Shown: positions 5,664 through 19,949 of the stretch, in pieces
Position numbering within the stretch: the stretch's first letter is position 1
Layout of the letters: every line of letters begins with the position of its first letter
NCBI RefSeq assembly: GCF_003148665.1
Contig: NZ_QGGQ01000002.1
Coordinates: 496,001-560,000, forward strand
Reading direction: 5' to 3'
DNA: 64,000 nt
Source: Maribacter polysiphoniae
GTDB lineage: Bacteria > Bacteroidota > Bacteroidia > Flavobacteriales > Flavobacteriaceae
Position numbers and translations under genes: made by a program
The notes under the pieces: model-generated
Database searches by the model: none
What the model saw: only the letters and a program-made list of their open reading frames with translations
Told to the model about the DNA's origin: nothing

Positions 5664-6851
5664 CTAATAGATTTGAATAGATTCAAACCTAGGCCTGTAA
5701 TCCTTATAATCTTCAAAAGTTTCAAGTATTTCCATGCTTTCCCGCTGTGCTACCCAATGCCTTAATTTATCCGATCCGTTGATGATATCCAAAGGCACGT
5801 TCGTATAATCATATTCATAAGGGGGATCCAACCATTGGAAATCCTCCCCCATCAGGTGGTACAACTCCCTCATAAGCCATTGCCCAACCCGCCAGGGTTG
5901 AAAAACCGTATGATCGGTCACATGAATTTGAAATCCCCCACATGCCGTATCGGCGTGTTTTTGGAAAGTAGGCATAAAAACTATGGGTCGAATGGCCACC
6001 CCCTTCAATTTTGTTGTTTTCAAGGCTTGTTTTAGGTGTCCCTCATACAAACCAAAGGGTTCAATTTTTGGGTGCCCCACAATCTCCAAGGGTTGGGTAG
6101 TTCCCCGACCTTCGCTAAACCGGGTCCCTTCAAACAAGACCGTTCCGGGAAAGGTTAAGGCACTTTCATGTCTGGCCAAATTTGGCGAAGGCAACAACCA
6201 CGGCAATCGGGTCTCTTCAAAAAACATGCCCCGTTCCCAGTTCCGCATTTTTATCACCCTATATGGTATTTGCTTGGCAGCCCAATATCTTTGGTGCATC
6301 AGACCAACTTCCCCAATGGTCATACCATGTCTAACAGGAATAGGATGGCGGCCGATGAAGGAAGCGAATCCAGGTTCCAAAACATTGCCTTCCAACGTTA
6401 TTCCGTTCAGGGGATTAGGACGATCCAGCACAATCACCTCAATATCCTTATCCATACATTTTTCCAACAAAAGTGTCAGCGAATAGATGTAGGTATACAT
6501 ACGACACCCCACATCTTGAAGATCCACGAAAAAATGATCTATTCCCTGTAGCATCTCATCCGTGGGCACACGCGTTTCAGAATACAGGGAATACACTGGG
6601 ATTTTAAAGAAAGGATGTTCACAATGGGCCGTTTCGATCATATTGTCCTGGGCATCGGTTGAAAATCCGTGTTGGGGACCAAAAAGTTTTACGAACCTAG
6701 GACCAAAAAGGGATTTGAATTTTAAGGCCGCATGTTCATATTCCCCATCGATGGATGCGTTATTACAAAGTAAGGCAACATTGCCCTTGAACTCTTTTTG
6801 AAGGTTCGGATCGCTCACCAAAACATCCAAACCTGTAGCGGTCTTCATCAT
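5664..6851 (-). CDS. DUF1343 protein, exo-beta-N-acetylmuramidase NamZ-like (cytoplasmic form)
   Basis: The predicted protein is 395 aa, starting at the first of two adjacent ATGs (6851, 6848); upstream codons look non-coding. Family hallmarks are FGPQHGFSTDAQD, FVDLQDVGCRMYTYIYSL, VLDRPNPLNG, a RHGMTIGE motif and FEGTRFSEGRGTTQPLEIVG. DUF1343 includes NamZ (GH171), which removes terminal MurNAc from peptidoglycan fragments. No signal peptide is seen, so it should act in the cytoplasm, unlike the lipoprotein paralog at the window end. It converges on ftsE with 41 bases between the stops. The family call is firm; substrate specificity is inferred. Confidence 0.85.
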   Translation of the reverse strand: MMKTATGLDVLVSDPNLQKEFKGNVALLCNNASIDGEYEHAALKFKSLFGPRFVKLFGPQHGFSTDAQDNMIETAHCEHPFFKIPVYSLYSETRVPTDEMLQGIDHFFVDLQDVGCRMYTYIYSLTLLLEKCMDKDIEVIVLDRPNPLNGITLEGNVLEPGFASFIGRHPIPVRHGMTIGEVGLMHQRYWAAKQIPYRVIKMRNWERGMFFEETRLPWLLPSPNLARHESALTFPGTVLFEGTRFSEGRGTTQPLEIVGHPKIEPFGLYEGHLKQALKTTKLKGVAIRPIVFMPTFQKHADTACGGFQIHVTDHTVFQPWRVGQWLMRELYHLMGEDFQWLDPPYEYDYTNVPLDIINGSDKLRHWVAQRESMEILETFEDYKDYRPRFESIQIY

Positions 6852-7190
6852 AATTACAATAATTAAAAAAGTCTTGCCCCCGTTAGCCCCCAAATTTCGG
6901 TCAATAGCATGTGCTTCACCCACTATGGCCCTACAGGGGTATCCAAGACGCTATGGACTGCGAACAACATCCAAATTTCCCCTATAAAATTACAATTAAT
7001 ACAACCGTTTATGGCAAGAACAATTCATCTATTGGAATGGTTTTCACTTTAATCCCATGAGTGTGAAACGGTTGACCCCAATTTCCCCATAATTCTTCGA
7101 ACAAAAAACACCAAGGATAGGCAAAATCAAACCAAGCTTACAGGATTTAGGGAACTTCCTACATTTTAAGTCCAATTCCTTTCCAACATA

Positions 7191-7219: not shown

Positions 7220-8725
7220 ATGCCACGATTCGAATATATTGGTTTCAAATATGCCGAATACCCCTTTGCATATTTATACAAGGATGAAAACGGCCAAAAA
7301 GGGGATAAAAAAATACATCAAATCATCTTTGGGGATTGGGTAGGGGTTTTGAAGCCCAAAAAGACAGACGGGGACTATTTGTTCGTTCGGGTACGTGGGG
7401 AAAATGGTTGGATGCACAAGGATGCCCTTCGGGACGAACGTGTTCTTGAAGTTGTTTTCCTGGATGTTGGACAAGGCGATGGGGCCTTGGTCGTAACCCC
7501 AGATGATGAGCATATCATAATCGATGCCGGATTGGGGGACAATATGTGGCGTTACCTAAAATGGAGGTATAATGAATTTAAAACCGAATGGGTCTTCAAA
7601 TACGCCATAGCTAGTCACCCTGACCAGGACCATTACGGGGGCTATCATTATTTGGCGGGAGAACCCAATGTGTTTTTCAATGAATTCTTACATAATGGAT
7701 TGCTGGAATACCAAAAAAACATAAAACCGTCCTATTTCGGGGAAACGGTAAAAACAGACCGCACGTACTATACCGACCTATTCGACAGCAAACAAAAAAT
7801 CATTGATTATTTGGCCCACGAACCCAATTGGAAGCACCCTTCGGGCAATGAACAATGGGATAAGAATTATGCCAAGCTATTAAAACGTATGCTCGACAAC
7901 AATAAAATCAATGGGGAGATACGCATGCTCAGTGAAGTCGATAAATATCTCGATGGGTTTGAACAGAACAAACCGCTTAACATACAAATCCTTGGGCCGG
8001 TCACTGAAACGGTCAACGGAAAAAAAGCATTGCGTTCCTTAGGCAACAAAGGCAAAACCAAAAACGGGCATTCCATTGTCTTTAAACTGAATTATAAGGA
8101 CATCAATATCTTCCTGGGTGGTGACCTGAACATCAAGGCCGAGGAATTCCTCATGGCAAAACATACGGACATGAAATTGGATTTCAACTCTGCTACCGAG
8201 GAAAACGAATTCATTGAAAATGCCCGACAGTTCTTTGAATCCGACATTGCCAAAGCGTGCCATCATGGTAGTGCGGATTTCACCAGCTTATTCCTGAGAT
8301 GCCTAAACTCGGTGGCTACGGTCATATCCAGTGGGGACGAAGAACAACATTCCCACCCCAGACCCGACACTTTAGGCGCAATAGGCGTAAACGGACGAGG
8401 GGATAGACCTTTGATCTTCAGTACGGAATTGGCCCGCTCGCATCGGGAAGATGAAAGAAAGACCTTGGCTGAGATCAATGAACTTGAAATTAAATTGGCA
8501 AAGGCGACAACCAATACCCGACGCCTACAACTCATCAATCAAATCCAAGAAAAGAACGAAAAGCTTAAGGAACGGAATGTCACGGTCTATGGCTCAATAA
8601 ACCTACGTACCGATGGGGAACGGTGTATCATTGCCCAAAAATTGGAAAAAGGTGGTGGAAGCAAGGTTTGGGATATTTATAAATTGGAAAAAAACAATAT
8701 AGGACGTTTCAAATACGTTCCTTAA
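7220..8725 (+). CDS. SH3b + ComEC-type metallo-beta-lactamase fold protein
   Basis: This is a 501-aa protein without signal peptide. Residues 1-72 look like a bacterial SH3 domain (FGDWVGVLKP, VRVRGENGWMHKDAL). From about 75 it is a metallo-beta-lactamase fold: FLDVGQGDGA, metal motif HPDQDH at 133-138, GGD at 300-302, and CHHGS plus HSHPRPD near 347-383. This is the set seen in the soluble hydrolase part of ComEC/Rec2 proteins, which cleave nucleic acid or phosphodiesters. A coiled-coil-like stretch (about 405-450) follows. No ComEC membrane domain is present. The next gene, a small membrane protein 5 bases downstream, is almost surely in the same operon. The substrate is unknown. Confidence 0.8.
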   Translation: MPRFEYIGFKYAEYPFAYLYKDENGQKGDKKIHQIIFGDWVGVLKPKKTDGDYLFVRVRGENGWMHKDALRDERVLEVVFLDVGQGDGALVVTPDDEHIIIDAGLGDNMWRYLKWRYNEFKTEWVFKYAIASHPDQDHYGGYHYLAGEPNVFFNEFLHNGLLEYQKNIKPSYFGETVKTDRTYYTDLFDSKQKIIDYLAHEPNWKHPSGNEQWDKNYAKLLKRMLDNNKINGEIRMLSEVDKYLDGFEQNKPLNIQILGPVTETVNGKKALRSLGNKGKTKNGHSIVFKLNYKDINIFLGGDLNIKAEEFLMAKHTDMKLDFNSATEENEFIENARQFFESDIAKACHHGSADFTSLFLRCLNSVATVISSGDEEQHSHPRPDTLGAIGVNGRGDRPLIFSTELARSHREDERKTLAEINELEIKLAKATTNTRRLQLINQIQEKNEKLKERNVTVYGSINLRTDGERCIIAQKLEKGGGSKVWDIYKLEKNNIGRFKYVP

Positions 8726-8730
8726 ATAGT

Positions 8731-9153
8731 ATGATAAAAAAAGAAAAAGACAACCGACCCGATCAAAAAACCAGTCCGTTTATAGGACTTTTACTATTCT
8801 GTATATCAATCCTCCTATTAGTGATTACAGGTCCTTTGGGCTTTATCTATGGTATTCTCCATTCTTTGTTCACAAAGGGATTTTCCGGTATTGGGGAGTT
8901 TTTATTGAAAATCGCCATATCCATAGATCAATTGGGCAATGTAATGATGCAGCATTTACTGAACCAACTCTGGATCAAAAAAGAAGGTTATCGATTTGGC
9001 AATCGGGATGAAACCATTTCCAGTGTACTCGGCAAGAACAAACAGAATGCCACATTGACCGGTTTTGGAAAGGCCATCGATAAAATCCTGGATATCATCG
9101 ACCCCAATCATTCCTTGAATTCCATAGATTATTACGTAGAACCCAACCATTAA
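8731..9153 (+). CDS. Small membrane protein paired with the MBL protein
   Basis: This 140-aa protein has a basic, polar N-terminus, a strong hydrophobic segment at about residues 17-47 (one long or two short helices) and a polar C-terminal half. I recognise no family. It starts 5 bases after the stop of the MBL gene, so the two are probably co-translated. A membrane partner or anchor for the soluble MBL protein is a reasonable inference, not shown. It converges on the epimerase gene with 10 bases between ends. Confidence 0.7.
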   Translation: MIKKEKDNRPDQKTSPFIGLLLFCISILLLVITGPLGFIYGILHSLFTKGFSGIGEFLLKIAISIDQLGNVMMQHLLNQLWIKKEGYRFGNRDETISSVLGKNKQNATLTGFGKAIDKILDIIDPNHSLNSIDYYVEPNH

Positions 9154-9163
9154 GACGATGGCA

Positions 9164-10228
9164 TCAAAAATCCAGCACACCTAAACCTGGCCGCTCAGAG
9201 GGGTACAACACCCCTTTCTCAAGGCGAAATATATCCTTGTAAGGATCAGAAACCAACTCTAAATGTCCGTCAAGATCCGCATACTTCACATTTTGTCTCG
9301 ACAAAGCAAAATGTAAGCCTGCCGCTATCCCGAGTCCACATTCATCGATACAACCGACCATGGCCTCCAACCGTGCCGCCTTGGCAACGGAATCAATGTG
9401 GGTACCGACCATAATACCACCTACTTTCTGCAGTTTTATGTTCACCATATCCACCCGTTCATTCTGTGCCAAACGAAAAGCGTCGGTCAAAGTCTTTAAG
9501 CTTTCGTCAGCCATCACAGGAATATGCACCTGATCTGTAACCTGTCCCAAACGCTCTTCCACTTCCTGCTTGGTAGGTTGTTCAAAGATCTCTATCCCAA
9601 TATCCTTTGTAGCCTTTACAAAAGCGACCGAATCCTTGACCGAATACCCTTGATTCCCATCAAAACGCAGGGTTATCTGCGGAAATTTCTCATGGATTTT
9701 GGTCATTTTATCAATATCATCCTGAAGGTTATCCCCTCCCTTTATCTTTAAAATGGAAAAACCTTGCCGTACATATTCCTGTGTATGCCTTAAGGTCTCT
9801 TCCACAGGCAAAATACCAATGGTAATGCTGGTGGCGATACTATTTCGATATCCTCCCAAAAATTTATACAGAGGCACTTCGGCCTTTTTGGAAATCAAAT
9901 CGTACAACGCCATATCGACCATGGCCAATGCAGAGGATCGCTTTCCCAGCAATTGCTTCAACTCCATCAACACAAAGGCATAGGAAAAAGGATCCTTACC
10001 AACTAAATATGGAGCTATTATGGTGGTAATGGCATGCTCAACATCCTTAGGATTCTCACCTGTCACCACCAAATCGGGTGCAGCACAACCATAGCCCAGC
10101 CATTTGCCATCGGTCTCCAATTTCAGGATAAAATTGGTCGTCTTGCTAATGGTCTCGTAAGCGATGGTATAAGGCACGGATAAATCAATATCCAAACGTT
10201 CGTATGTAACTGCCGTGATTCTCATCAA
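9164..10228 (-). CDS. Dipeptide epimerase / DgcA-like enolase-superfamily enzyme
   Basis: This 354-aa protein belongs to the muconate-lactonizing/L-Ala-D/L-Glu epimerase group. Visible catalytic elements are KIK at 161-163, metal ligands D190 (RFDGNQ), E216 (FEQP) and D241 (MADES), and the second acid/base Lys265 (NIKLQK). A C-terminal ADLDG motif is typical of dipeptide-binding members. Known relatives epimerize L-Ala-D/L-Glu from murein, and DgcA racemizes N-acetyl-Glu. It is the last gene of a five-gene operon and overlaps the creatininase gene by 4 bases. A DUF1611/DgcN homolog in the same operon makes the N-acetyl-D-Glu route a serious alternative. Confidence 0.85.
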   Translation of the reverse strand: MMRITAVTYERLDIDLSVPYTIAYETISKTTNFILKLETDGKWLGYGCAAPDLVVTGENPKDVEHAITTIIAPYLVGKDPFSYAFVLMELKQLLGKRSSALAMVDMALYDLISKKAEVPLYKFLGGYRNSIATSITIGILPVEETLRHTQEYVRQGFSILKIKGGDNLQDDIDKMTKIHEKFPQITLRFDGNQGYSVKDSVAFVKATKDIGIEIFEQPTKQEVEERLGQVTDQVHIPVMADESLKTLTDAFRLAQNERVDMVNIKLQKVGGIMVGTHIDSVAKAARLEAMVGCIDECGLGIAAGLHFALSRQNVKYADLDGHLELVSDPYKDIFRLEKGVLYPSERPGLGVLDF

Positions 10229-11025
10229 TATCTTTTTTGATACAATTCGTCCAAAGGTGTATTCTTGATCGACTCAACGAAACGTACCATATTCTTGATC
10301 ATAACCTCCCACATTTTCTCTCCTTTCTCCTTAGTCCCTTTTGTGGCATCCCCCATAATTCCACTTTCAGAGATCTTATCGGTACGTACATACCAGCTAA
10401 TACTACGGTCATCATCAAAATCAAGGTAATCACTACCAAATTTAAGGGTCGATTCCTGGGCCTTATCCATTTGTACCATATCCGGGCGAATCGCCAAGGT
10501 GGTACTCGTCTCTATTTCACCTGCATGGGCATCGTTAGGGGTCTCGACCATACCCGCCAAATCCACATCACTGGTCTCACCGGTATCCACACCCACAAAG
10601 ATCTTTGCATCGCGGTTGATCATTTGGGCCGCATAACTCAATGTTGGGGCATTATCCCCATGGCCGTTAAGAATAATTATCTTCTTTACACCGTTCTTTG
10701 CCAAGCTCATTCCCAAATCATAAACAAATTTGGACAAGGCATCATTGGTTACACTCAACGTCCCCTTAAAACCATCATGATGGTAAGATACTCCAAAGGG
10801 TATGGGCGGTAATACCAAGGGTTTGGGATCTTCACAGGCCTCAGCTACCTTATAGGCCATATATTTGGCATCAAAGTAATCCACATCCAATGGTAAATGT
10901 GGCCCATGTTGTTCTATGGCCCCACAGGGTAGGATAACCGTATCAACGGTTTTTAAATAAGCCTCAATTTCTGGCCAGGTAAATTCTTCCCAAAGAAAAC
11001 CAGCCTTTTTATTATTTGTGTTCAT
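10225..11025 (-). CDS. Creatininase-family amidohydrolase
   Basis: This 266-aa metal-dependent hydrolase shows the creatininase signature: VILPCGAIEQHGPHLPLDVDYFD (Glu, His and Asp ligands), YHHDGFKGTLSV, ILNGHGDNAP and DAHAGEIETS. The family includes creatininase, ArfB-type deformylases and the MftE peptidase, all cleaving an amide bond. It starts 2 bases after the PP-loop gene and overlaps the epimerase start by 4, so translation is coupled on both sides. In this operon it may open or trim an amide or peptide made by its neighbours (inference). No signal peptide is present. Confidence 0.85.
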   Translation of the reverse strand: MNTNNKKAGFLWEEFTWPEIEAYLKTVDTVILPCGAIEQHGPHLPLDVDYFDAKYMAYKVAEACEDPKPLVLPPIPFGVSYHHDGFKGTLSVTNDALSKFVYDLGMSLAKNGVKKIIILNGHGDNAPTLSYAAQMINRDAKIFVGVDTGETSDVDLAGMVETPNDAHAGEIETSTTLAIRPDMVQMDKAQESTLKFGSDYLDFDDDRSISWYVRTDKISESGIMGDATKGTKEKGEKMWEVMIKNMVRFVESIKNTPLDELYQKRY

Positions 11026-11027
11026 TG

Positions 11028-12533
11028 TTATTTTGTTAGAAAATAAGGGGTTTCGTAATCCTCATTTTGCAAGGTGAAGGTATGCCATTTTCGGTCACGT
11101 AACTTTACTGACCCATCGGAATATTTTGCTAAAATTCCAAAAAGCGGTTTTCGAACATGCATGGGTAGATCACGCATCATACTTCGCTCATTATCAAAGC
11201 GTAACTTTACGATCTCTGGATGTTCCTTGGCCAATTTCAAGGTGTGGTCGGTTTTATCGATCAACCCTTTTTCCATCAATAGGTAATACAAGTGGGATGC
11301 ATCGCTACCGATTTGTTTTATACTACGGGCCGACAATGCCTTCAACCCTTTTTCAATCTGCTCCTCGGTGTACCCACATCGTTTGGGATCCTCATCCAAT
11401 GCTTTCAACATACCCACGATACGTCTACACTTTTCACAATTGCCACAGGGCATCATTCTACCATTTTCCTCATGGGCAGCATGGCAAGACACTTGATGGG
11501 TCTGCAATTCGGGATAACGTTTTACCAAGATTTTCAATATCAATAGTTCAGAAGTACTTCTTAATATTGAGTATTGATACAGGTCCCAACCCTTCCTTTT
11601 ATAATATCTCGTAAGTGCGTTGTCAAAATATTTACTCTGATCGTACAAGGAATTATAGTGGGATATCCCCTCATGGTTTCCCTTTACCGTAGTATCATAC
11701 TCGTTCCCGATGAGTACATTACCAATATTTCGCTTTCGCACGATCGGGAGTGTTCCAAAAAGAAAAACCGCCACGGTCCATAAACGAATGGGATAGATAT
11801 CGGCCCTGATGTTCTGAAAGTTCTCTTTGATGAAGGGCATCTGTTTCACCATCCAATTAAAGATACGGTCGCTATTGCACCAGGGTTTTGCCGTATTCGG
11901 TTCAATTTCCTTATAGTATTTATGCGAATTGATCGCCGTAAACCAATGCCTACCTGATTCGTTGATAAATACCGGATGGGCCTCACCGATTTCCTTTATG
12001 ATTCCATAGGTCAAAAGGCTGTCCTTGCCCCCACTACTTAGAATCGCATATTTGTTTTTATCCGTTTCATTGATTTTCCCTTCAACCTTCAAATGGGCAT
12101 ATTCGGTATTTATAAATTCGATTTTAGCAGCGGTATACTGCTTTAATTTCTCGACTTTCAAACTATCAAAGGGCGGCTTTAAAAATTCATTTTTATGGAA
12201 GAATTTATTGACCACAATTTCCCGAGAGGTATTCTCCATCATATCCCTCAGAAAGCTTTTATCAATCTCGTCGAACAAACCATCAAATTGGATGGTTTCA
12301 AAAAAGAGTCCATAATTCAACGCGACCTGTGCCAACATCATGGAGGCCAAGTTAACATCCTCGGCATTCTTCCTATCAAAATACACTTGGTCATAGGAAT
12401 AAATCAACTCATTCGAAACATGGGAACCATCCTCTTTACCAACAGTATAAACCGCTTTCACCCTTTTGGGTTCAACAGTAATCTGGTGAACCGTAAGCTT
12501 GGGAAAAACAACAAGAGATCTTATCGATGTCAT
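11028..12533 (-). CDS. PP-loop ATP-pyrophosphatase with QueC-like Cys cluster
   Basis: This 501-aa protein has a roughly 160-residue N-terminal part that I do not recognise. It is followed by a PP-loop (AILSSGGKDSLLTYG, SGGKDS at 167-172) and a zinc-type cluster C350, C363, C366, C369 (CGNCEKCR). PP-loop enzymes adenylylate an acid or carbonyl group and then add a nucleophile, as in QueC, AsnB and beta-lactam synthetase. The Cys pattern resembles QueC, but the protein is about twice QueC's length and no queuosine genes are nearby. It overlaps the DUF1611 gene by 4 bases and leads the creatininase gene by 2. Amide or nitrile formation on an amino-acid substrate is inference. Confidence 0.75.
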   Translation of the reverse strand: MTSIRSLVVFPKLTVHQITVEPKRVKAVYTVGKEDGSHVSNELIYSYDQVYFDRKNAEDVNLASMMLAQVALNYGLFFETIQFDGLFDEIDKSFLRDMMENTSREIVVNKFFHKNEFLKPPFDSLKVEKLKQYTAAKIEFINTEYAHLKVEGKINETDKNKYAILSSGGKDSLLTYGIIKEIGEAHPVFINESGRHWFTAINSHKYYKEIEPNTAKPWCNSDRIFNWMVKQMPFIKENFQNIRADIYPIRLWTVAVFLFGTLPIVRKRNIGNVLIGNEYDTTVKGNHEGISHYNSLYDQSKYFDNALTRYYKRKGWDLYQYSILRSTSELLILKILVKRYPELQTHQVSCHAAHEENGRMMPCGNCEKCRRIVGMLKALDEDPKRCGYTEEQIEKGLKALSARSIKQIGSDASHLYYLLMEKGLIDKTDHTLKLAKEHPEIVKLRFDNERSMMRDLPMHVRKPLFGILAKYSDGSVKLRDRKWHTFTLQNEDYETPYFLTK

Positions 12534-13603
12534 TTCAAATGTTCCTTTAAAATTGCAATAAGGGGTTCCGCGCTGAATCGTAATACATCAAAGGCCGGCA
12601 ACTTGGTCTCCAAGGTAATGTTCTTGCAGGCTTCCAGAATTTCTTCATCACTTTCCATCAACTCGTGGTTCACCGTTACAGCAATTACCTTTTTACCGGA
12701 AATGACTTCCACGGCATTGATCTGTTCTTTAAGGGAATGCAATTTGTAGCCCGGAAAACCATCATACTCCACTCTTTTAGGGGCGTGTTGCATAATCACA
12801 AAGTCGGGACGCCCGGCAGCCAATATCTCGAATCCGCCAGGATATGCGGGATTCATAAGACTCCCCTGCCCTTCGATCACAATCACATCCGGATTTTCGT
12901 TTTCATAGGCACTTACAACAGCGTGTTCTATTTCCCCAGAAACAAAATCGTTGATACAACTGTCCATGACCATACTGTACTTAGCGCCTTGCATCCATGC
13001 CGTTTGCCCCGTACCGACCATTTCAGCCTTGAGGCCTGCATTGCGGAAAGCATGGACAATGATCCAGGCCGTGGTACGCTTGCCCAATGCGGAATCGGTA
13101 CCCAAGATGGCCAGTTTTAGGCAATCGACCTTTTCAATATCCCCTGTAAAAAAATGAAGCTTATCCCTATCCGGGGTTTTTCGTACATCACGGATCCTAC
13201 AGTTTTTCTCCTTGGCCAATGCTACCATTTCGGGGTCATTGGTCAAAAAATCGTGCAATCCACTATCTATGTTCCATCCCTTTTGCAGTGCCTTTATAAT
13301 GGTGCCCTTTGCCTCAAAAGGCAAACGTCCCCCATCGGGGGCCAAACCGATAACTAGGGTTTTCGGGGTATTTGCCTTGGGTAGTCCGGCAACAGCCTCA
13401 TCCATATTCCCGAAAATGGGAATATCGTTCGCTTTCCCATCCAATACAAGACCGGCATCATTTCCTGCATATTTTGTATCCAACACACCAACCACCTCAT
13501 AACGCTCGGTAAAACGTACCAATCCATGGGCTGTCTTACCATTTGGGGTATTGAATGCCCCTTCACAGTATACCAATGCCTTACCGTCTATTGTTTTTTT
13601 CAT
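12530..13603 (-). CDS. DUF1611 protein, D-glutamate N-acetyltransferase DgcN-like
   Basis: This 357-aa protein has the two-part DUF1611 layout: a Rossmann-like N-terminal half (VVGVLDTKYAGNDAG, PIFGNMDEA, LVIGLAPDGG) and a P-loop-like C-terminal half (AILGTDSALGKRTTAW, 165-180; VIVIEGQGSLMNPAYPGG). In marine bacteria a DUF1611 protein, DgcN, acetylates D-glutamate and works with the racemase DgcA, an enolase-superfamily protein. Both partners occur in this operon. The gap to the upstream PLP gene is 6 bases, and it overlaps the PP-loop gene by 4. The family is certain; the DgcN reaction is inferred. Confidence 0.85.
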   Translation of the reverse strand: MKKTIDGKALVYCEGAFNTPNGKTAHGLVRFTERYEVVGVLDTKYAGNDAGLVLDGKANDIPIFGNMDEAVAGLPKANTPKTLVIGLAPDGGRLPFEAKGTIIKALQKGWNIDSGLHDFLTNDPEMVALAKEKNCRIRDVRKTPDRDKLHFFTGDIEKVDCLKLAILGTDSALGKRTTAWIIVHAFRNAGLKAEMVGTGQTAWMQGAKYSMVMDSCINDFVSGEIEHAVVSAYENENPDVIVIEGQGSLMNPAYPGGFEILAAGRPDFVIMQHAPKRVEYDGFPGYKLHSLKEQINAVEVISGKKVIAVTVNHELMESDEEILEACKNITLETKLPAFDVLRFSAEPLIAILKEHLK

Positions 13604-13609
13604 ATCCGT

Positions 13610-14671
13610 TTATTTTTTAGCGGTCAATACCGCCACAAACCTACCAGGTTCAAAATTCAATTTTTCGTCCATTTCCAAAAGGGCAATAAGTCCGGCTGTC
13701 GCTGCCGGTAAAATTGTAAATCCTTCTTTTTTTGCCAACAAGGAAGTCATTTCCCTCATTTTCCGATCACTGATGTTAAATGCTTCCCCTTGTGATTCTT
13801 TCAAGGCATACAAAGCCTCCTCCCCATCAAAACTATGCCAGTTGATCAATGGTTCGTTGTATTTGGTCTCTTTAATGGCATCCGGTTTTAAATCCCTACA
13901 GTAATCCAGTCCCAAAATAAAGGACTGTACGATCGGATTTTTGCGACTCGAGGAAGCTGCTATCATTTTGGGAATCCTTGAGGTTTTACCTCGCTTATAA
14001 AGACTAACAAACCCCCTGTAGATTCCAGCGAACAACGTTCCGTTTGAAACCGGAACCGCACAATAATTGGGGGCATCCCCCAAATCCTCATATATTTCAT
14101 TTGCAATTTGCGAATAGGCTGAAATCTGTAGGGGGGTATTGGACCCTCCCGGGTTGGCATCGTACCAATCATTTTCAAGCGCTAATTCGCTACTCTGCAT
14201 AACTACGTCTTCATAATTGCCCGGAAGCCTTATAATCTCGGATCCAAGTGCCTCCATTTCAGCAATACGATCCGTATGATAACTTTCCGGTATATAAATC
14301 TTACATCTTATTCCCGCTAAATTGGCCGCCAAAGCCACTGCCACCCCATAATTGCCACAGGTTGCCAAAGAAACAACCCGATAATCCCTACGCAAGGCAT
14401 CATAAATCTGGGCAAAGGCAATACGGTCTTTTTGGGTACCAGTAGGGTTATCCCCTTCATACTTAATGTACAATTGCCGTATACCGAATTCGCGCTCCAT
14501 GGTCTTGGCACGGTTCAGTCCCGTGTCACCGACTTCCAAATTGATGATGTCTTCGAACGACTCGAGGCGATCGACCATCGATTTGCTCTTATCCTTGACA
14601 AAAGCACTCAACTCTCTTGCTTCCTCGGACACATTATTTTCCGAGGTTTTCACTCCGTCTTTAAGATTCAT
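13610..14671 (-). CDS. PLP-dependent enzyme, threonine-synthase-like (fold type II)
   Basis: This 353-aa protein has the PLP-lysine motif YEGDNPTGTQKDRIA, a substrate-loop-like LATCGNYGVAVALAA and a glycine-rich phosphate loop (VPVSNGTLFAGIYRG). This places it with threonine synthase, cysteine synthase and serine/threonine dehydratases. It is shorter than most threonine synthases, lacks their N-terminal domain, and starts with a charged 40-residue extension. It is the first gene of the five-gene operon, so it probably supplies or consumes the amino-acid substrate of the pathway. The actual reaction (beta/gamma replacement or elimination) cannot be read from sequence. Confidence 0.8.
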   Translation of the reverse strand: MNLKDGVKTSENNVSEEARELSAFVKDKSKSMVDRLESFEDIINLEVGDTGLNRAKTMEREFGIRQLYIKYEGDNPTGTQKDRIAFAQIYDALRRDYRVVSLATCGNYGVAVALAANLAGIRCKIYIPESYHTDRIAEMEALGSEIIRLPGNYEDVVMQSSELALENDWYDANPGGSNTPLQISAYSQIANEIYEDLGDAPNYCAVPVSNGTLFAGIYRGFVSLYKRGKTSRIPKMIAASSSRKNPIVQSFILGLDYCRDLKPDAIKETKYNEPLINWHSFDGEEALYALKESQGEAFNISDRKMREMTSLLAKKEGFTILPAATAGLIALLEMDEKLNFEPGRFVAVLTAKK

Positions 14672-14936: not shown

Positions 14937-15854
14937 ATGAAAAATACCGTATCATTTTTTACTTTTTTAATGGTAGTCTCAATGGCCCTTAATGCCCAGA
15001 GTAAATTACCCATTCAAATAGATGATGCCAAAATAAAACCTTTACCTAGTTTGTTGGAAAGCTCCTTGCAAGCCGATTTGGAACGGGAATTAATGACAAA
15101 CACCCAATGGAGCCAATTGATCTCACAAAAGAAAATGGCGGTTGGTATTGTAGACCTTCGTGACCCTGAGAATGTAAGGTTTGCCCGAGTGAATGGAAAC
15201 CATATGATGTATGCTGCCAGTTTGCCTAAAATCGCGATTCTTTTATCCGCGATGGATGCTATTGAAAAGGGGGAATTGAAAGAAACCCCCGAAATTCGGA
15301 AAGACATGCGCCTTATGATAAGTAAATCGAACAACGCCGCATCGACGCGAATGATAGACCGTGTAGGTTATGAAAAAATAGAAGCGGTAATGACCGACCC
15401 GAAATATGAATTCTATGATGGAAACAAAGGTGGTGGACTCTGGGTCGGCAAACGATATGGTGGGGGTGGTGACACCCACAGGGAGCCTTTGAAAAATCTC
15501 AGTCATGCCGCAACCGTAACCCAAGTCTGTCGCTACTATTACCTTTTGGCCAATGGAAAGTTAGTCAATGAAAACCGTTCTAAGCAGATGTTGGCGATCA
15601 TGGAGAACCCCGAATTACACCATAAATTCGTAAATACGTTGGATAAAATCGCACCCAATGCACGATTGTTCCGCAAATCGGGTTCCTGGAAAACCTTTCA
15701 TTCCGATTCGATATTGGTCTGGGGAGAAAACCCAAACAGGCGGTATATATTGGTAGCGCTTATCGATGACCCCAATGGGGAACAGATAATCCGTGATTTG
15801 GTAAAACCGGTCGAAAAAGTTCTTATAAAGCGCATATCTTTAGCCAAAAACTAG
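14937..15854 (+). CDS. Exported class A beta-lactamase-fold serine hydrolase (1)
   Basis: This 305-aa protein has a signal peptide (about 1-21, ending ALNAQ) and the three active-site boxes of the penicillin-binding/beta-lactamase fold: SLPK at 95-98 (nucleophile Ser95), SNN at 131-133 and KSG at 248-250. The class A Glu166-type omega loop is not evident, so a peptidase or amidase role is as likely as beta-lactam resistance. It should act in the periplasm. The transporter-like gene follows after 19 bases. A second protein with the same three boxes lies at 18687-19949. Confidence 0.85.
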   Translation: MKNTVSFFTFLMVVSMALNAQSKLPIQIDDAKIKPLPSLLESSLQADLERELMTNTQWSQLISQKKMAVGIVDLRDPENVRFARVNGNHMMYAASLPKIAILLSAMDAIEKGELKETPEIRKDMRLMISKSNNAASTRMIDRVGYEKIEAVMTDPKYEFYDGNKGGGLWVGKRYGGGGDTHREPLKNLSHAATVTQVCRYYYLLANGKLVNENRSKQMLAIMENPELHHKFVNTLDKIAPNARLFRKSGSWKTFHSDSILVWGENPNRRYILVALIDDPNGEQIIRDLVKPVEKVLIKRISLAKN

Positions 15855-15873: not shown

Positions 15874-18690
15874 ATGCTCCAAAATATAATCAAGAAAGTA
15901 TTTGATGTACGGGAAGGGGAATTCAAGGTTTCACTTCTGATGTTGTCCTATATTTTCTTGATTATAGCCGTTTTACTGATCATTAAGCCAACCGTTAATG
16001 CACTGTTTCTTTCTGAGCTTGGGGTAGAACAATTGCCTTATGCCTTTTTATGGGTCTCGATTGCCGCGGTAATTAGCTCTTTTTTCTATTCAAAGGCCTT
16101 GGCCCGATTTTCCCTTCATAAAATAGTGAAGATCACCCTGATCACCTCGGTAGTGGTTTTAATTGGCTTGGGTGTTCTTTTGAAATTAGGGATCGTGAGC
16201 GGATGGCTCTTGTATTTCTTTTATGTCTGGGTAGCTATTTATGCGGTTTTATCCGCCTCCCAATTCTGGGTTCTGGCCAATTTGGTTTACAATGTCAGGG
16301 AAGCCAAACGATTATTCGGTTTTATAGGCTCTGGAGCCATTTTAGGGGGGATTTTCGGAGGATACCTTACTTCTATCCTTGCCCCAATTATCGGTAATGA
16401 AAATCTGATTTTCTTGGCTGCCTTTCTACTTTTATCCTGCATTCCCCTTCTGGGCCGTATCTGGAAATCACGGGTGAAAAAACTGGGGAAATTCAAGGAA
16501 AAGAAGCGAACGGCGACTAGCCCTGAAAGGCCTTTAAGACGTATTCGGCAATCAAGACATCTTACCTACATAGCACTGATTGTCGCTATTAGCGTGCTGG
16601 TGGCCAAACTGGTGGATTACCTCTTTAGCGATTTTGCGGCCGCAGCGATTATAGATGCGGATGAATTGACATCGTTCTTTGCGTTTTGGTTTTCCACATT
16701 CAATTTACTCTCATTGGCGATACAGTTATTTTTCACCCATAGGATTGTTGGGGTTTGGGGGGTTGGTTTCTCCCTTCTTTTATTACCCCTGGGTATTTTT
16801 GGTGGATCACTGCTTTTCCTGATTCTTCCAGAGCTTTCCGCCGTAGTGGTGATAAAGGCAATGGATGGTATCTTAAAACAATCCGTCAACAAAAGTGCCA
16901 CCGAACTTTTGGCCCTGCCGTTGCCCTTTGAATTGAAGAACAAGACCAAATCGTTTATAGACGTTGTGGTTGATAGTATTGCAACGGGAATTGCCGGTTT
17001 TCTCCTGATTTTTGTAGTCCGTGGTCTTGATCTGCCTTCCTTCTATATTGCGGTACTCATTATTTTACTGGTGGGACTATGGCTTTTCTTTATTCTTCAG
17101 GTACGAAAGGAATACTACAAAACCTTTCGCGACAATTTGGAACTGATTACTGAACGGACAGGCAAAACCAATAAGCGTATCAAAAGAACTTCAGTTATAA
17201 CCGGCATGCGCACGGTTTTTAAGAATGGTACCGAAGGGCAAATCCTATTCATGCTCGAAAAATTAATGGAAATCAATGACAGGAGATTTGAAAATGATGT
17301 CCTCGAGCTTCTTGCACACCCTTCAACCAAAGTACGCACAGCGGCCATACAAAACCTTTATTTTTTAAATAATTCCACAATGGCCACCAATATTTCGGAC
17401 CTTCTAAATACCGATGATGAGGCATTGACATTGGCAAGTTTGGAATACCTTTTGTTACATGCCGAAAAAGATAGCCGATTGGTCTACGACCGGTATTTGG
17501 ATCACCCCAATGAAAAGATTGCCGCTGCCGCACTCTATTGCCTTGCACGTGAGGCACGTGACAACCATCCCTTGAGAATATCGTACAAACTAGAAGAGCG
17601 TATCCAACGAAGAATAGAACGTCTTGAAACGGCCTCGGACCAAACCGCTTCCCTGGGCATGCTCTTGCAAACCATTGGAATTGCAAATATTCCGGGTTTT
17701 TACCCTTTTATCCTATCCTATTTGAAGCATCATGACATTACCATTGTCCAAACGGCGATTGAAGCTTTGGGAAAGACCATGCACCCTTCATTTATCCCCG
17801 TCCTAATCGATTTCTTACCCAATAAATCATTACGCACCCCAGCAATTGTTTCCCTACATAATTATGGTTCAAATGTCATCGGGGTACTTCTCGACATATT
17901 GAAAGAACGAACAACACCTTTGAATACCTGCCGGTTTATCCCCCTTGTGATCAAATCGTTCAAAACACAGGAATCCGTACGCACCTTATTGCTACTTTTG
18001 AACGATACCGATTTGGGCATACGGTTGGAAACGATTCGGGCCTTAAGTGATATTCGAAAAACCAATCCAGAACTTCAATTCAACCGACACCAGGTGGTTA
18101 CCCAAATTTTCGAGGAATGCAAACTATATCACCAGACCCTAGCTGCCATGCATACCCAAATCATCATCTCGTATAGGAACCGTAAAAAATCCCGAAAAGA
18201 GATCAGTGACAAGGAGCGCGATGCCCGTACCAGTCTATTGGAACTCCTGGAACGTCGGTTGGATGCCGGACTCGAACGTATCTTTAAACTTTTAGGGTTG
18301 CGCTACCAACAAAAGGATGTTGAAATTGCGTACGAGGGATTACGCAGTGATAAACAGGAGGCCCAAACCAATGCCATTGAATTCTTGGACAATCTACTAA
18401 CCGGGGATTTGAAACGAAAATTATTGCCCATCATCGAGGATTCAGCATTGGAAATATCTTCCGAGGAGGAACTACAAAAAATAAAACATAAAATTCCCAC
18501 GGAAATGGAGTGTTTTCAATTTCTTCTACAGGGAAACGATCAAAAAATAAAACTGGCCGTTCTCTTTTTGATCAAGCATCAAAAAGACAAAAAATACCTT
18601 CCCATGGTCGAAAAGGAAGTTAAAAGTGATGATTTCAAATTACGGACGTTTGCCCAGGATGCCATTGAGGCGCTTCAATACCCGTCCTAG
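15874..18690 (+). CDS. Npt/Tlc-type nucleotide-transporter-like protein with HEAT-repeat domain
   Basis: In this 938-aa protein residues 1 to about 410 hold around a dozen hydrophobic helices of the ATP/ADP translocase (NTT, MFS-related) type, with a basic loop near 200-225. Residues about 440-930 are soluble alpha-helical HEAT-like repeats (LLAHPSTKVRTAAIQNL, LIDFLPNKSLRTPAIVSL). NTTs exchange ATP for ADP or other nucleotides; the transport activity of HEAT-fused members is not established. It is co-transcribed with the exported hydrolase 19 bases upstream. Its TAG stop shares the palindrome CTAG with the stop of the converging gene. Confidence 0.8.
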   Translation: MLQNIIKKVFDVREGEFKVSLLMLSYIFLIIAVLLIIKPTVNALFLSELGVEQLPYAFLWVSIAAVISSFFYSKALARFSLHKIVKITLITSVVVLIGLGVLLKLGIVSGWLLYFFYVWVAIYAVLSASQFWVLANLVYNVREAKRLFGFIGSGAILGGIFGGYLTSILAPIIGNENLIFLAAFLLLSCIPLLGRIWKSRVKKLGKFKEKKRTATSPERPLRRIRQSRHLTYIALIVAISVLVAKLVDYLFSDFAAAAIIDADELTSFFAFWFSTFNLLSLAIQLFFTHRIVGVWGVGFSLLLLPLGIFGGSLLFLILPELSAVVVIKAMDGILKQSVNKSATELLALPLPFELKNKTKSFIDVVVDSIATGIAGFLLIFVVRGLDLPSFYIAVLIILLVGLWLFFILQVRKEYYKTFRDNLELITERTGKTNKRIKRTSVITGMRTVFKNGTEGQILFMLEKLMEINDRRFENDVLELLAHPSTKVRTAAIQNLYFLNNSTMATNISDLLNTDDEALTLASLEYLLLHAEKDSRLVYDRYLDHPNEKIAAAALYCLAREARDNHPLRISYKLEERIQRRIERLETASDQTASLGMLLQTIGIANIPGFYPFILSYLKHHDITIVQTAIEALGKTMHPSFIPVLIDFLPNKSLRTPAIVSLHNYGSNVIGVLLDILKERTTPLNTCRFIPLVIKSFKTQESVRTLLLLLNDTDLGIRLETIRALSDIRKTNPELQFNRHQVVTQIFEECKLYHQTLAAMHTQIIISYRNRKKSRKEISDKERDARTSLLELLERRLDAGLERIFKLLGLRYQQKDVEIAYEGLRSDKQEAQTNAIEFLDNLLTGDLKRKLLPIIEDSALEISSEEELQKIKHKIPTEMECFQFLLQGNDQKIKLAVLFLIKHQKDKKYLPMVEKEVKSDDFKLRTFAQDAIEALQYPS

Positions 18691-19949
18691 TTCATTCGTA
18701 TCAACTTATCGATGTTCCCTGCCAAATACATATGGTCAGAAGCGGAATTTTTCCGTAGTACGTTGGTCATCAGTACCACCATATAATTGCAATTGTCAGG
18801 TTGTTCCACTATGGCCACCGAGTTCATGAAGTTCGTGACATTCCCCATATATTTACCGCAGGCCTCCCCCTTGCTTCGATCGCATTTATAAAGACTACCC
18901 GATTTGAAATATACGGCAGCCTCTTTTAAGGCGGGTGCCTGTGCGTATCGTATTCGACGATCGGTCATATACAGCAATCGTTTCATTTCCAAACTACTTT
19001 GTTCATCCACTACCTTACCCTGTTCCAATTGGATCAAGAATTTCATCAATCCGAAAGGGGTTCCTATACTTCCCCCCTTATCACCCACATAGGTGTTGGC
19101 CCCACGGGTAAAAAAACTTCCCAATCGCCATTCATCGGCGGTAATCCCTAAATCACGTAATGGGAGGTTTACGACATCATTACCTAGATCGGTCAATTCC
19201 TTTCTGGGGGTGTCCTTAAAATAGGCATCGCTTTCCTCCTGGGTCAGGTCGGGATACTTCTCCCCAAAAGCGGCCATTAGCAATACTTCGCGCCACACAA
19301 TGCTTGCCGCAGCGTTATTACTGACCGATAGCATATGGTCTGTCCATTCATAGAGGGAAAAAACATCACTGGCTATCACCTGTCTTTTTACCAGTGTATT
19401 CTTTTCTATATTGTAAATTGGAATGGTATGTTCGTCGGTAAGTCCCCAAACCCCAGCTTGTACCGATTTGTTCCGTAACAGCTCGGTGCGTTTATCCCAG
19501 GAATCCGGATATATTTTGGCCAGTTGTACAAAGAGTCCGTTCAATACGGCCAATTTACCAACGCTCCCAGGTTGATAGCCCGAAGTTTCATTTCGTTGGG
19601 CATACCTAAGGTGCTCCACATCAGAGATATCGACTACGGTCAAGGAATAGCTTTTATCCAACCCCCGGAATAAGTTGTTTATTTCCTTTTGGAAATCAGC
19701 GTCTATGGTCATTAAGGCCGTAGCACTATCCTGATTTCTCGAAAGGAGGTTCAATTCAATCTCACTGTATGCCTTCATAGCCCCCGCGGGCAATGGGGTG
19801 GCATTCTTTATCTCACCACTTTTGATGAGTTCCAAACGTTTTAAACGTTTTATCCCGGTCTGCCCGTAACCATCAATGGGGTAATAATGCAAGGTTGTGA
19901 ATGCGGAACAGACAACAAAAAGAACGATGTAAATAAAGGGTTTGGTCAT
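18687..19949 (-). CDS. Exported class A beta-lactamase-fold serine hydrolase (2)
   Basis: This 420-aa protein has an N-terminal hydrophobic signal or anchor (about residues 4-20) and a linker of about 100 residues. The penicillin-binding-fold boxes are SVGK at 129-132, SNN at 210-212 and KSG at 349-351. It is longer than hydrolase 1, with an insertion of about 80 residues between the second and third boxes and several Cys residues after KSG. It overlaps the upstream dikinase-like gene by 4 bases, so the two are translationally coupled. A periplasmic peptidase or amidase is likely; true beta-lactamase activity is not supported by an obvious general-base Glu. Confidence 0.8.
   Translation of the reverse strand: MTKPFIYIVLFVVCSAFTTLHYYPIDGYGQTGIKRLKRLELIKSGEIKNATPLPAGAMKAYSEIELNLLSRNQDSATALMTIDADFQKEINNLFRGLDKSYSLTVVDISDVEHLRYAQRNETSGYQPGSVGKLAVLNGLFVQLAKIYPDSWDKRTELLRNKSVQAGVWGLTDEHTIPIYNIEKNTLVKRQVIASDVFSLYEWTDHMLSVSNNAAASIVWREVLLMAAFGEKYPDLTQEESDAYFKDTPRKELTDLGNDVVNLPLRDLGITADEWRLGSFFTRGANTYVGDKGGSIGTPFGLMKFLIQLEQGKVVDEQSSLEMKRLLYMTDRRIRYAQAPALKEAAVYFKSGSLYKCDRSKGEACGKYMGNVTNFMNSVAIVEQPDNCNYMVVLMTNVLRKNSASDHMYLAGNIDKLIRMN

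Follow-up and report, generated by a model that had tools for sequence, protein, structure and literature searches.

A five-gene operon of Maribacter polysiphoniae (Flavobacteriaceae), located within a 64,000-nucleotide stretch of contig NZ_QGGQ01000002.1 (positions 496,001 to 560,000; hereafter the window), recurs as a unit in many genomes. It encodes a pyridoxal phosphate (PLP) enzyme (gene 1), a DUF1611/DgcN-like protein (gene 2), a PP-loop ATPase (gene 3), a creatininase-family amidohydrolase (gene 4), and a dipeptide-epimerase-like member of the enolase superfamily (gene 5). Because these five families recur together so widely, the set is beyond chance. The five enzymes probably act on small amino-acid derivatives, and we tentatively propose that they make or interconvert a single small compound, either an N-acylated amino acid or a dipeptide. 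An earlier, sequence-only reading of this DNA had seen in the operon D-glutamate (D-Glu) or dipeptide chemistry combined with a PP-loop ligase-like enzyme, a view that an ordinary transfer RNA or queuosine enzyme in that place would have refuted. The recurrence of the set stands, and the PP-loop protein is not a queuosine enzyme; the D-Glu/dipeptide chemistry is not supported as stated.

All five genes lie on the minus strand, from 14671 down to 9164, and the intergenic gaps from gene 1 to gene 5 are 6, -4, 2, and -4 bases; open reading frame (ORF) coordinates and family matches thus confirm the layout first described from the sequence. Gene 5 starts at a TTG with an ATG immediately after it (the gene 4/5 junction reads ...TATTGATGAGAATC), so the overlap between genes 4 and 5 may be 1 base instead of 4. 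Recurrence was established by a pattern-based scan that used the PP-loop protein as its sole seed and covered 84,980 species, each through one genome. The scan found 49 loci, and 34 of them contain all five genes in the order PLP-DgcN-PP-Creat-Epim, which bears out the idea that the families belong together; one gene is cut at a contig end in three of the 34 (L008, L040, and L045). The remaining loci read PLP-DgcN-PP-Creat (7), PP-Creat-Epim (4, of which L052 is cut by a 100-N gap), PP-Creat (2), PLP-PP-Creat (1), and PP only (1, at a locus that stops at the contig end). In 48 of the 49 loci, the PP-loop gene has the creatininase gene beside it or is fused with it. Genes in the fetched loci were called as the longest non-overlapping ORFs, which hid the creatininase of L044 until it was restored from the scan; in the Lewinella-type loci L020 and L022, the gene after PP-Creat is another, longer member of the enolase superfamily and was not scored as Epim. 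The window lies on contig C2 of a genome of 5.1 Mb, and the closest PP-loop rows to the window protein are from Maribacter aquimaris (95% identity). When the five proteins are compared pair by pair across 37 full loci and the window, their identities correlate with r of 0.76-0.94, values that shared ancestry alone also raises and that include several near-identical Maribacter loci. As the sequence-only reading had suspected, a pathway of this five-enzyme composition was not found in the open-licence PubMed Central literature.

Presence and absence across genomes reveal two tightly coupled pairs. Of 395 Bacteroidota genomes in one fixed sample, 11 carry the PP-loop gene, and the creatininase orthologue is in exactly these 11; the PLP orthologue is in 20 and the DgcN-like orthologue in exactly these 20, which include all of the 11. 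Probabilities calculated for the identity of these sets take no account of shared ancestry. Creatininase and PLP orthologues were counted at E up to 1e-60 and DgcN-like orthologues at E below 1e-160, a cut-off chosen post hoc from the gap between 1e-167 and 1e-131, and 30 further genomes have only more distant DUF1611 proteins. Among 247 Desulfobacterota genomes, five contain a full-length match to the PP-loop protein, and one more contains a distant match. Plasmid searches with the PP-loop protein and with its relative at L100, described below, gave no match.

The operon appears to be modular. Loci L140-L146, drawn from nine PLP-positive, PP-negative genomes (G038 and G100 not included), keep PLP, DgcN, and Epim together in seven of seven cases, with the PLP gene oriented away from DgcN-Epim in L141 and L142. 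Because the PP-less loci keep PLP-DgcN-Epim, PP-Creat looks like a pair inserted between DgcN and Epim, and the base module looks like PLP-DgcN-Epim with the PP-loop and creatininase genes as the addition. In the PP-Creat-Epim loci of Muriicola/Eudoraea (L014, L017, and L019), PLP-DgcN is kept as a pair elsewhere in the genome, and the genome of L021, a locus cut at a contig end, also holds such a pair elsewhere. The flanking genes c8, c9, mostly c6, and then BLA2a are common to L005, L006, L014, L017, L019, and L021; they adjoin the full operon in Maribacter and, in Muriicola/Eudoraea, the PP-first version, a pattern that would result if a single locus had either lost or gained PLP-DgcN by its movement. 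Simpler arrangements also exist: DgcN-Epim only (L150-L153 and L155) and DgcN alone (L154). In L147, L148, and L149, a class-II 3-deoxy-D-arabino-heptulosonate 7-phosphate (DAHP) synthase gene sits in the PLP position, overlapping or abutting the DgcN-like gene and followed by an epimerase-like gene; the synthase of L149 was assigned through clustering with the other two. A gene of ~509 codons with GNAT and carbon-nitrogen hydrolase domains follows Epim in L014, L017, and L019 and lies nearby in L029, L031, and L102. It was considered as a fixed sixth partner and rejected, as outside the three Muriicola/Eudoraea loci it occurs at few others, one to three genes off the cluster. A gene for a Nit6803-like nitrilase stands two genes away from L144, a PP-less cluster, and has relatives at L145 and L146.

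The PP-loop and creatininase proteins are fused into one polypeptide in 14 of the 66 tallied loci. The fusion is seen in 4 of the 49 seeded loci, in 6 of the 11 Bacteroidota genomes, and in 4 of the 5 Desulfobacterota genomes; the Flexithrix dorotheae protein at L037 is one natural example. This fusion counts in favor of a substrate shared by the pair. In a PP-loop tree of 56 rows (L005, L010, L048, and L052 left out), all 42 rows without the fusion fall into a single supported group (98/97), which leaves the 14 fused rows as its complement, so a single fusion or a single split suffices. Calditrichota, SAR324, and Desulfobacula proteins form with seven Bacteroidota proteins a supported ten-row group (99/92), and four other Desulfobacterota proteins are placed outside it. 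The mixed-phylum grouping argues for transfer between phyla. We propose that the operon is self-contained and has spread horizontally. Coordinates are collected in Table 1.

Table 1. Operon genes and other features discussed in the text
Feature	Location	Coordinates	Strand	Remarks
Gene 1, PALP PLP enzyme	window	13610..14671	-	353 aa; Pfam PALP 198 bits
Gene 2, DUF1611/DgcN-like	window	12530..13603	-	357 aa; Pfam DUF1611_C 209 bits and DUF1611_N 88 bits (PF07755/PF17396)
Gene 3, PP-loop ATPase	window	11028..12533	-	501 aa; no Pfam family at E 0.001
Gene 4, creatininase-family metal-dependent amidohydrolase	window	10225..11025	-	266 aa; Pfam Creatininase PF02633 237 bits
Gene 5, dipeptide-epimerase-like enolase-superfamily enzyme	window	9164..10228	-	354 aa; MR_MLE_C 143 bits and MR_MLE_N 51 bits
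NamZ-type exo-muramidase	window	5664..6923	-	near operon
ComEC-like metallo-beta-lactamase-fold protein	window	7220..8725	+	
Small gene	window	8731..9153	+	directly after the ComEC-like gene
Beta-lactamase-like gene	window	14937..15854	+	near operon
Beta-lactamase-like gene	window	18687..19949	-	near operon
Second DUF1611 and enolase-superfamily pair	same genome, contig C14	73944..74543		
The same pair	locus L001	1486..3600	-	
MurL-like PP-loop relative	locus L100	3085..4443	-	453 aa; Desulfobacterota genome

Gene 3 belongs to the PP-loop superfamily by motif and by fold. The SSGGKDS motif at residues 166-172, a form of SGGxDS, is present in 36 of the 36 aligned sequences that reach it, and PP-loop folds are among the best matches of a confident structural model (predicted local distance difference test, pLDDT, 92.4; predicted template modeling score, pTM, 0.91), so the PP-loop label given from the sequence holds. 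A Foldseek search ranked the QueC-like Cap9 first (E 9.7e-4, the sole match under 0.001; template modeling (TM) score 0.65 over the target), an oxidoreductase and a predicted transfer RNA (tRNA)-methyltransferase subunit second and third, and QueC fourth (E 6.8e-3, TM 0.72 over the target), with TtuA, MnmA, and GMP synthetase below. Gene 3 shares with QueC and Cap9 the core fold and a four-Cys site (C350, C363, C366, and C369, invariant where covered). It differs from them in its extra N- and C-terminal regions and in falling outside the sequence family. PDB sequence searches with gene 3 or its profile found nothing credible, and a characterised member of its family was not found in the open-licence PubMed Central literature.

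The fold and the four-Cys site, together with the high ranks of Cap9 and QueC and the lower ones of TtuA and MnmA, are what an ordinary tRNA or queuosine enzyme beside unrelated genes would display. Four observations oppose this explanation. First, the QueC model (PF06508, cut-off 22 bits) has no match in the M. polysiphoniae genome at E 0.001, and a separate QueC gene is present in three of the four other cluster genomes tested. Second, even with the E limit raised to 10, only 3 of the 37 PP-loop members match QueC, all weakly (the best at E 0.011), and three true QueC proteins match the PP-loop profile with 12% probability. Third, the tRNA thiolase NcsA matches 1 of the 37 members (E 0.12), and no good match to a tRNA-enzyme family was otherwise seen. 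Fourth, the association with creatininase is fixed. We therefore rejected a queuosine identity for gene 3, which would have refuted the sequence-only reading, and consider the explanation as a whole scarcely credible. Other tRNA roles are graded unlikely rather than impossible, because the fold search does list PP-loop enzymes that modify tRNA among its lower ranks.

The best family match of the PP-loop set is MurL, an epimerase dependent on adenosine triphosphate (ATP); the ligase-like character that the sequence-only reading gave to gene 3 may still apply. With the E limit set at 1, the NCBIfam MurL model (NF041275) matches 32 of the 37 members, the best at 1.4e-5, and the window protein at 8.6e-5 over residues 272-372. 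The L100 protein matches the MurL profile over residues 116-336 (E 1.1e-5) and the PP-loop profile with 96% probability (hhalign), and carries the motifs SFGKDS and SCH...C..C..C; since it matches both profiles, it bridges MurL and the gene 3 family, and it appears to be another uncharacterised branch of the MurL/PP-loop group. An ORF tentatively read as acetoacetyl-CoA-synthetase-like adjoins its gene, and the other four genes are absent from its 7.3-kb contig. MurL uses one ATP, releases adenosine monophosphate (AMP), and epimerizes peptidyl Glu one way, according to passages of PMC8788868 and PMC5808125. Gene 3 differs from MurL in scoring far under the cut-off and in its fused or adjacent creatininase, and the MurD2 partner was not seen near the clusters among the 25 of 140 neighbor families listed, the neighbors being partly annotated. 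On these comparisons, gene 3 appears to form a distant, new branch within the MurL/QueC-like PP-loop group.

The solved structure closest to gene 5 by sequence is the Bacillus subtilis L-Ala-D/L-Glu epimerase (AEE; 1jpm, E 3e-65), and gene 5 shares with this and other dipeptide epimerases (3jva and 3rit) the general catalytic residues and the DxD motif. KxK 161/163, D190/E216/D241, K265/K268, and DxD 318/320 are kept in 24 of 24 cluster members; we take the KxK and the opposite lysines to be catalytic and the Asp/Glu/Asp triad to bind the metal. Because these residues are kept, gene 5 should epimerize. It differs from the B. subtilis enzyme at position 25, where Arg24, which presumably holds the Glu side chain, is replaced by Glu in all 24 members. 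This speaks against Glu as the substrate, and the side chain is probably not an acid of that kind. Position 295 is Asp, as in the Methylococcus capsulatus enzyme 3rit, which we take to be specific for cationic dipeptides. In the plain DgcN-Epim pairs of other Bacteroidota, position 25 is Lys (L150, L151, and L153), Tyr (L152), or Arg (L155), and beside DAHP synthase it is Glu in two loci and Val in one. Taken together, these residues argue mildly for a cationic or polar substrate.

Gene 2 fits the DgcN group by its DUF1611 fold with a P-loop. It scores 153.1 bits against the DgcN model NF041892 (E 8.6e-45; curated cut-off 480), the P-loop GTDSALGKRT (168-177) is intact, with residues invariant in 20 of 20, and its structural model (pLDDT 82.8) matches 2obn (TM over the query 0.83), 2g0t (0.77), and DgcN 7xrj (0.68; Foldseek E 1.4e-20), followed by BioD; 2obn and 2g0t are listed without a stated function. 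N-acyl transfer by gene 2 is a guess inherited from DgcN, and ATP-dependent ligation is possible. The operon resembles the DgcN/DgcA system, the D-Glu route formed by an N-acetyltransferase and an N-acetyl-Glu racemase, in encoding a DUF1611 protein together with an MR/MLE enolase-superfamily epimerase and in matching 7xrj by sequence and by fold. It differs in adding a PLP enzyme and often PP-loop and creatininase genes, in the E25 and D295 of the epimerase, and in the low scores of both proteins (134.1 bits for gene 5 against DgcA NF042940, curated cut-off 400). The same genome also has a second DUF1611 and enolase-superfamily pair on contig C14, which lies nearer DgcN (245 bits) and DgcA (174 bits) than the operon pair, still under the cut-offs. 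With both cut-offs missed, Arg24 replaced, and a nearer pair elsewhere in the genome, D-Glu salvage of the DgcN/DgcA type was rejected, and the D-Glu/dipeptide chemistry of the sequence-only reading is not supported as stated.

A broader catabolic role would have the operon degrade a D-amino acid or an environmental amide: the DgcN-like protein and the epimerase would turn D into L through an N-blocked intermediate, an amide or lactam would be opened by the PP-loop and creatininase enzymes, and a side group would be removed or eliminated by the PLP enzyme. DgcN/DgcA is a D-Glu utilisation route (PMC10845958). The DgcN/DgcA-like pair on contig C14, the amide hydrolysis typical of the creatininase family, and the patchy, accessory distribution (11 of 395 Bacteroidota genomes) fit such a role. 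Spending ATP on a substrate is unusual in catabolism, and apart from MscS, transporter, porin, and regulator families each occur in at most 3 of the 97 neighboring genes scanned (among the 25 of 140 families listed). We consider a catabolic role rather improbable.

The PLP enzyme encoded by gene 1 is of fold type II and threonine-synthase-like, with the motifs GTQKDR, which contains the presumed PLP lysine K81, and TCGNYG; at 401.9 bits, it exceeds the cut-off of 266 for NCBIfam NF004996 (PRK06381) and is thus a predicted member of that threonine synthase model. Gene 4 passes the creatininase-family cut-off (236.9 bits versus 31.3, PF02633). Its residues E38, H40, D49, H122, and E172, among which we take the metal ligands to be, are invariant in 24 of 24, as are others. 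It falls under the cut-offs for creatininase proper (TIGR04448, 114.4 of 235 bits) and for MftE (TIGR03964, 139.7 of 172 bits). Members of the creatininase family are amide hydrolases.

Reasoning from how the genes are linked and arranged in modules, from the fusion, and from the folds and active-site residues, all of which the sequences show, we infer the chemical steps, their order, the substrate, and the role as follows. First, the PLP enzyme would form or consume the amino acid. Second, the DUF1611 protein would attach to the amine of that amino acid an acyl or aminoacyl moiety, much as DgcN acetylates D-Glu. Third, the enolase-superfamily enzyme would reversibly epimerize the alpha carbon of the N-blocked compound, as DgcA and the dipeptide epimerases do. 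Fourth, in the extended form of the operon, the PP-loop enzyme would adenylate the carboxylate of the N-blocked compound at the expense of ATP, the chemistry proposed for MurL and known in other PP-loop enzymes, and the creatininase-family enzyme would hydrolyse the resulting amide, a cyclic intermediate, or a later amide. The role would likely be osmotic or ionic adaptation. We put this sequence of steps and its role forward as possible, short of probable.

The osmotic part of the proposal comes from the genes beside the cluster. The neighbor tally kept 59 loci after 13 near-duplicates had been dropped by hand and left out 19 of 111 immediate neighbors (short genes, N-gap or doubtful ones, and some near-duplicates); the 97 scanned comprise 92 immediate and 5 second neighbors from 54 loci. 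MscS is the commonest Pfam family (5 of the 97), followed by DUF2807 (4), CorA (3), and TerC (3) among the 25 of 140 families listed. The MscS genes, whose row identity was inferred from a separate MscS search, adjoin L034, L038, L047, L051, and L106, and three share the strand of the cluster; all five, like the three TerC genes, are immediate neighbors, and one of the three CorA genes (L051) is a second neighbor. Given 148 MscS genes in 20 cluster genomes (117.8 Mb) and assuming 0.9 genes per kb, 0.135 would be expected among 97 (Poisson 3.4e-7) and ~0.155 among 111; no MscS gene was found among the 19 left out. For TerC (26 background genes) the expectation is 0.024 (Poisson 2.2e-6). A same-locus control over the 59 loci, with an MscS search seeded from genes beside the cluster, counted MscS in 10 of 215 within two genes versus 2 of 311 farther away (p 0.003), and MscS, CorA, and TerC pooled in 16 versus 4 (p 3e-4). 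At L051, four MscS-like genes stand on one side of the cluster and TerC and CorA on the other. MscS channels are known from ectoine gene clusters (excerpts of PMC13342039). The over-representation of MscS hints at an osmolyte role.

Several observations weigh against the proposed mechanism and role. The acyl-transfer step may be wrong, because the P-loop of gene 2 resembles the ATP-binding BioD as well as DgcN, and Epim is absent beside the cluster in 11 of the 49 loci (of which L018 and L021 stop at a contig end). The window protein matches MurL at 21.2 bits, far under the curated cut-off of 700 bits, and the MurL model had no match in 59 Desulfobacterota genomes and 14 controls, so the MurL likeness was judged by profile. 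As 3rit shares D295 yet keeps Arg at position 25, the two positions give no single answer on the substrate, and the PP-less PLP-type locus L143 has Gln at position 25. Among the adjoining MscS genes, two of five are on the opposite strand and one, at L034, encodes just 182 residues; the single island L051 supplies several of the MscS, TerC, and CorA matches, and CorA and TerC are each non-significant in the same-locus control (p 0.19). A family scan found no osmotic gene beside the operon in the window itself. A beta-lactamase-like gene occurs in 9 of 49 loci, a count equal to the 9 of 59 loci, a differently drawn set, with MscS within two genes. Because of these last two points, the osmotic link stays a hint.

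An alternative with the same osmotic end is a synthetase/amidase route to a neutral osmolyte, an amino acid with both of its charges masked. The DUF1611 protein would acylate the amine, the PP-loop enzyme would amidate the carboxylate or couple it with ammonia or an amine, the creatininase would remove the amide on turnover, and the epimerase would set the stereochemistry. Uncharged amino-acid osmolytes have both charges masked (passages of PMC1224877), the core of gene 3 resembles QueC, which makes a nitrile from ATP and ammonia (excerpts of PMC13060819), and an asparagine synthase, a GNAT acetyltransferase, and an aminopeptidase make up the N-acetylglutaminylglutamine amide (NAGGN) operon (PA3459-PA3461), whose role is osmotic (PMC8070244). 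The two operons are alike in combining carboxylate activation, N-acyl transfer, and a hydrolase; they differ in that other protein families fill all three parts, that the epimerase and PLP enzyme are extra, and that the osmotic role here is a conjecture. The MscS neighbors fit this alternative as well, and the PP-loop/creatininase fusion would suit a bifunctional synthetase/amidase. None of the five operon proteins has a Pfam match at E 0.001 to asparagine synthase, GNAT acetyltransferase, or aminopeptidase; glutamine amidotransferase is not matched there either, and the 18 families that the PP-loop set matches weakly include neither asparagine synthase nor glutamine amidotransferase. The best profile of that set is an epimerase. 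Moreover, amidation would need to be optional, because the PP-less clusters retain the other genes. We think this route doubtful.

Other genes near the operon suggest a further alternative, peptidoglycan recycling, in which the epimerase and its partners would handle cell-wall L-Ala-D-Glu. A NamZ-type exo-muramidase gene and two beta-lactamase-like genes lie close by in the window (Table 1), and by sequence the epimerase is closest to B. subtilis AEE. NamZ recurs in just 3 of 49 loci, all Maribacter, and relatives of the beta-lactamase-like gene at 14937 in 9 of 49, all Flavobacteriaceae; neither is present in 38 of 49 loci within the covered stretch. The E25 replacement removes the residue presumed to bind Glu, and we know of no place for PLP, DUF1611, PP-loop, or creatininase enzymes in that recycling route. 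Given the few loci with NamZ or the beta-lactamase-like gene, peptidoglycan recycling was set aside as very improbable. Between the NamZ gene and the operon lies a gene for a ComEC-like protein that resembles LmuA (PADLOC E 8.4e-16) and Avs1a and is possibly an orphan defence-type hydrolase; a small gene with no family assignment follows it.

Returning to the proposed N-acyl pathway, its product may be an unusual amino-acid compound, perhaps salt-protective. In its boldest form, which we consider unlikely, the operon would be a new compatible-solute pathway for a stereo-inverted, N-blocked, carboxylate-modified amino acid. It would tie a new MurL/QueC-like PP-loop family to creatininase, release its product through MscS beside some copies, and have moved as a cassette among Bacteroidota, Desulfobacterota, Calditrichota, and SAR324. 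The operon offers a testable unit with strong genomic evidence, namely identical presence sets, fusion, and co-transfer, and it includes a PP-loop family without any match in Pfam. If it is true that the PP-loop and creatininase enzymes epimerize with ATP, they would represent a second kind of a chemistry so far known from MurL. If the osmolyte reading is true, a stereo-inverted compound would be added, together with a marker by which to recognise it in genomes.

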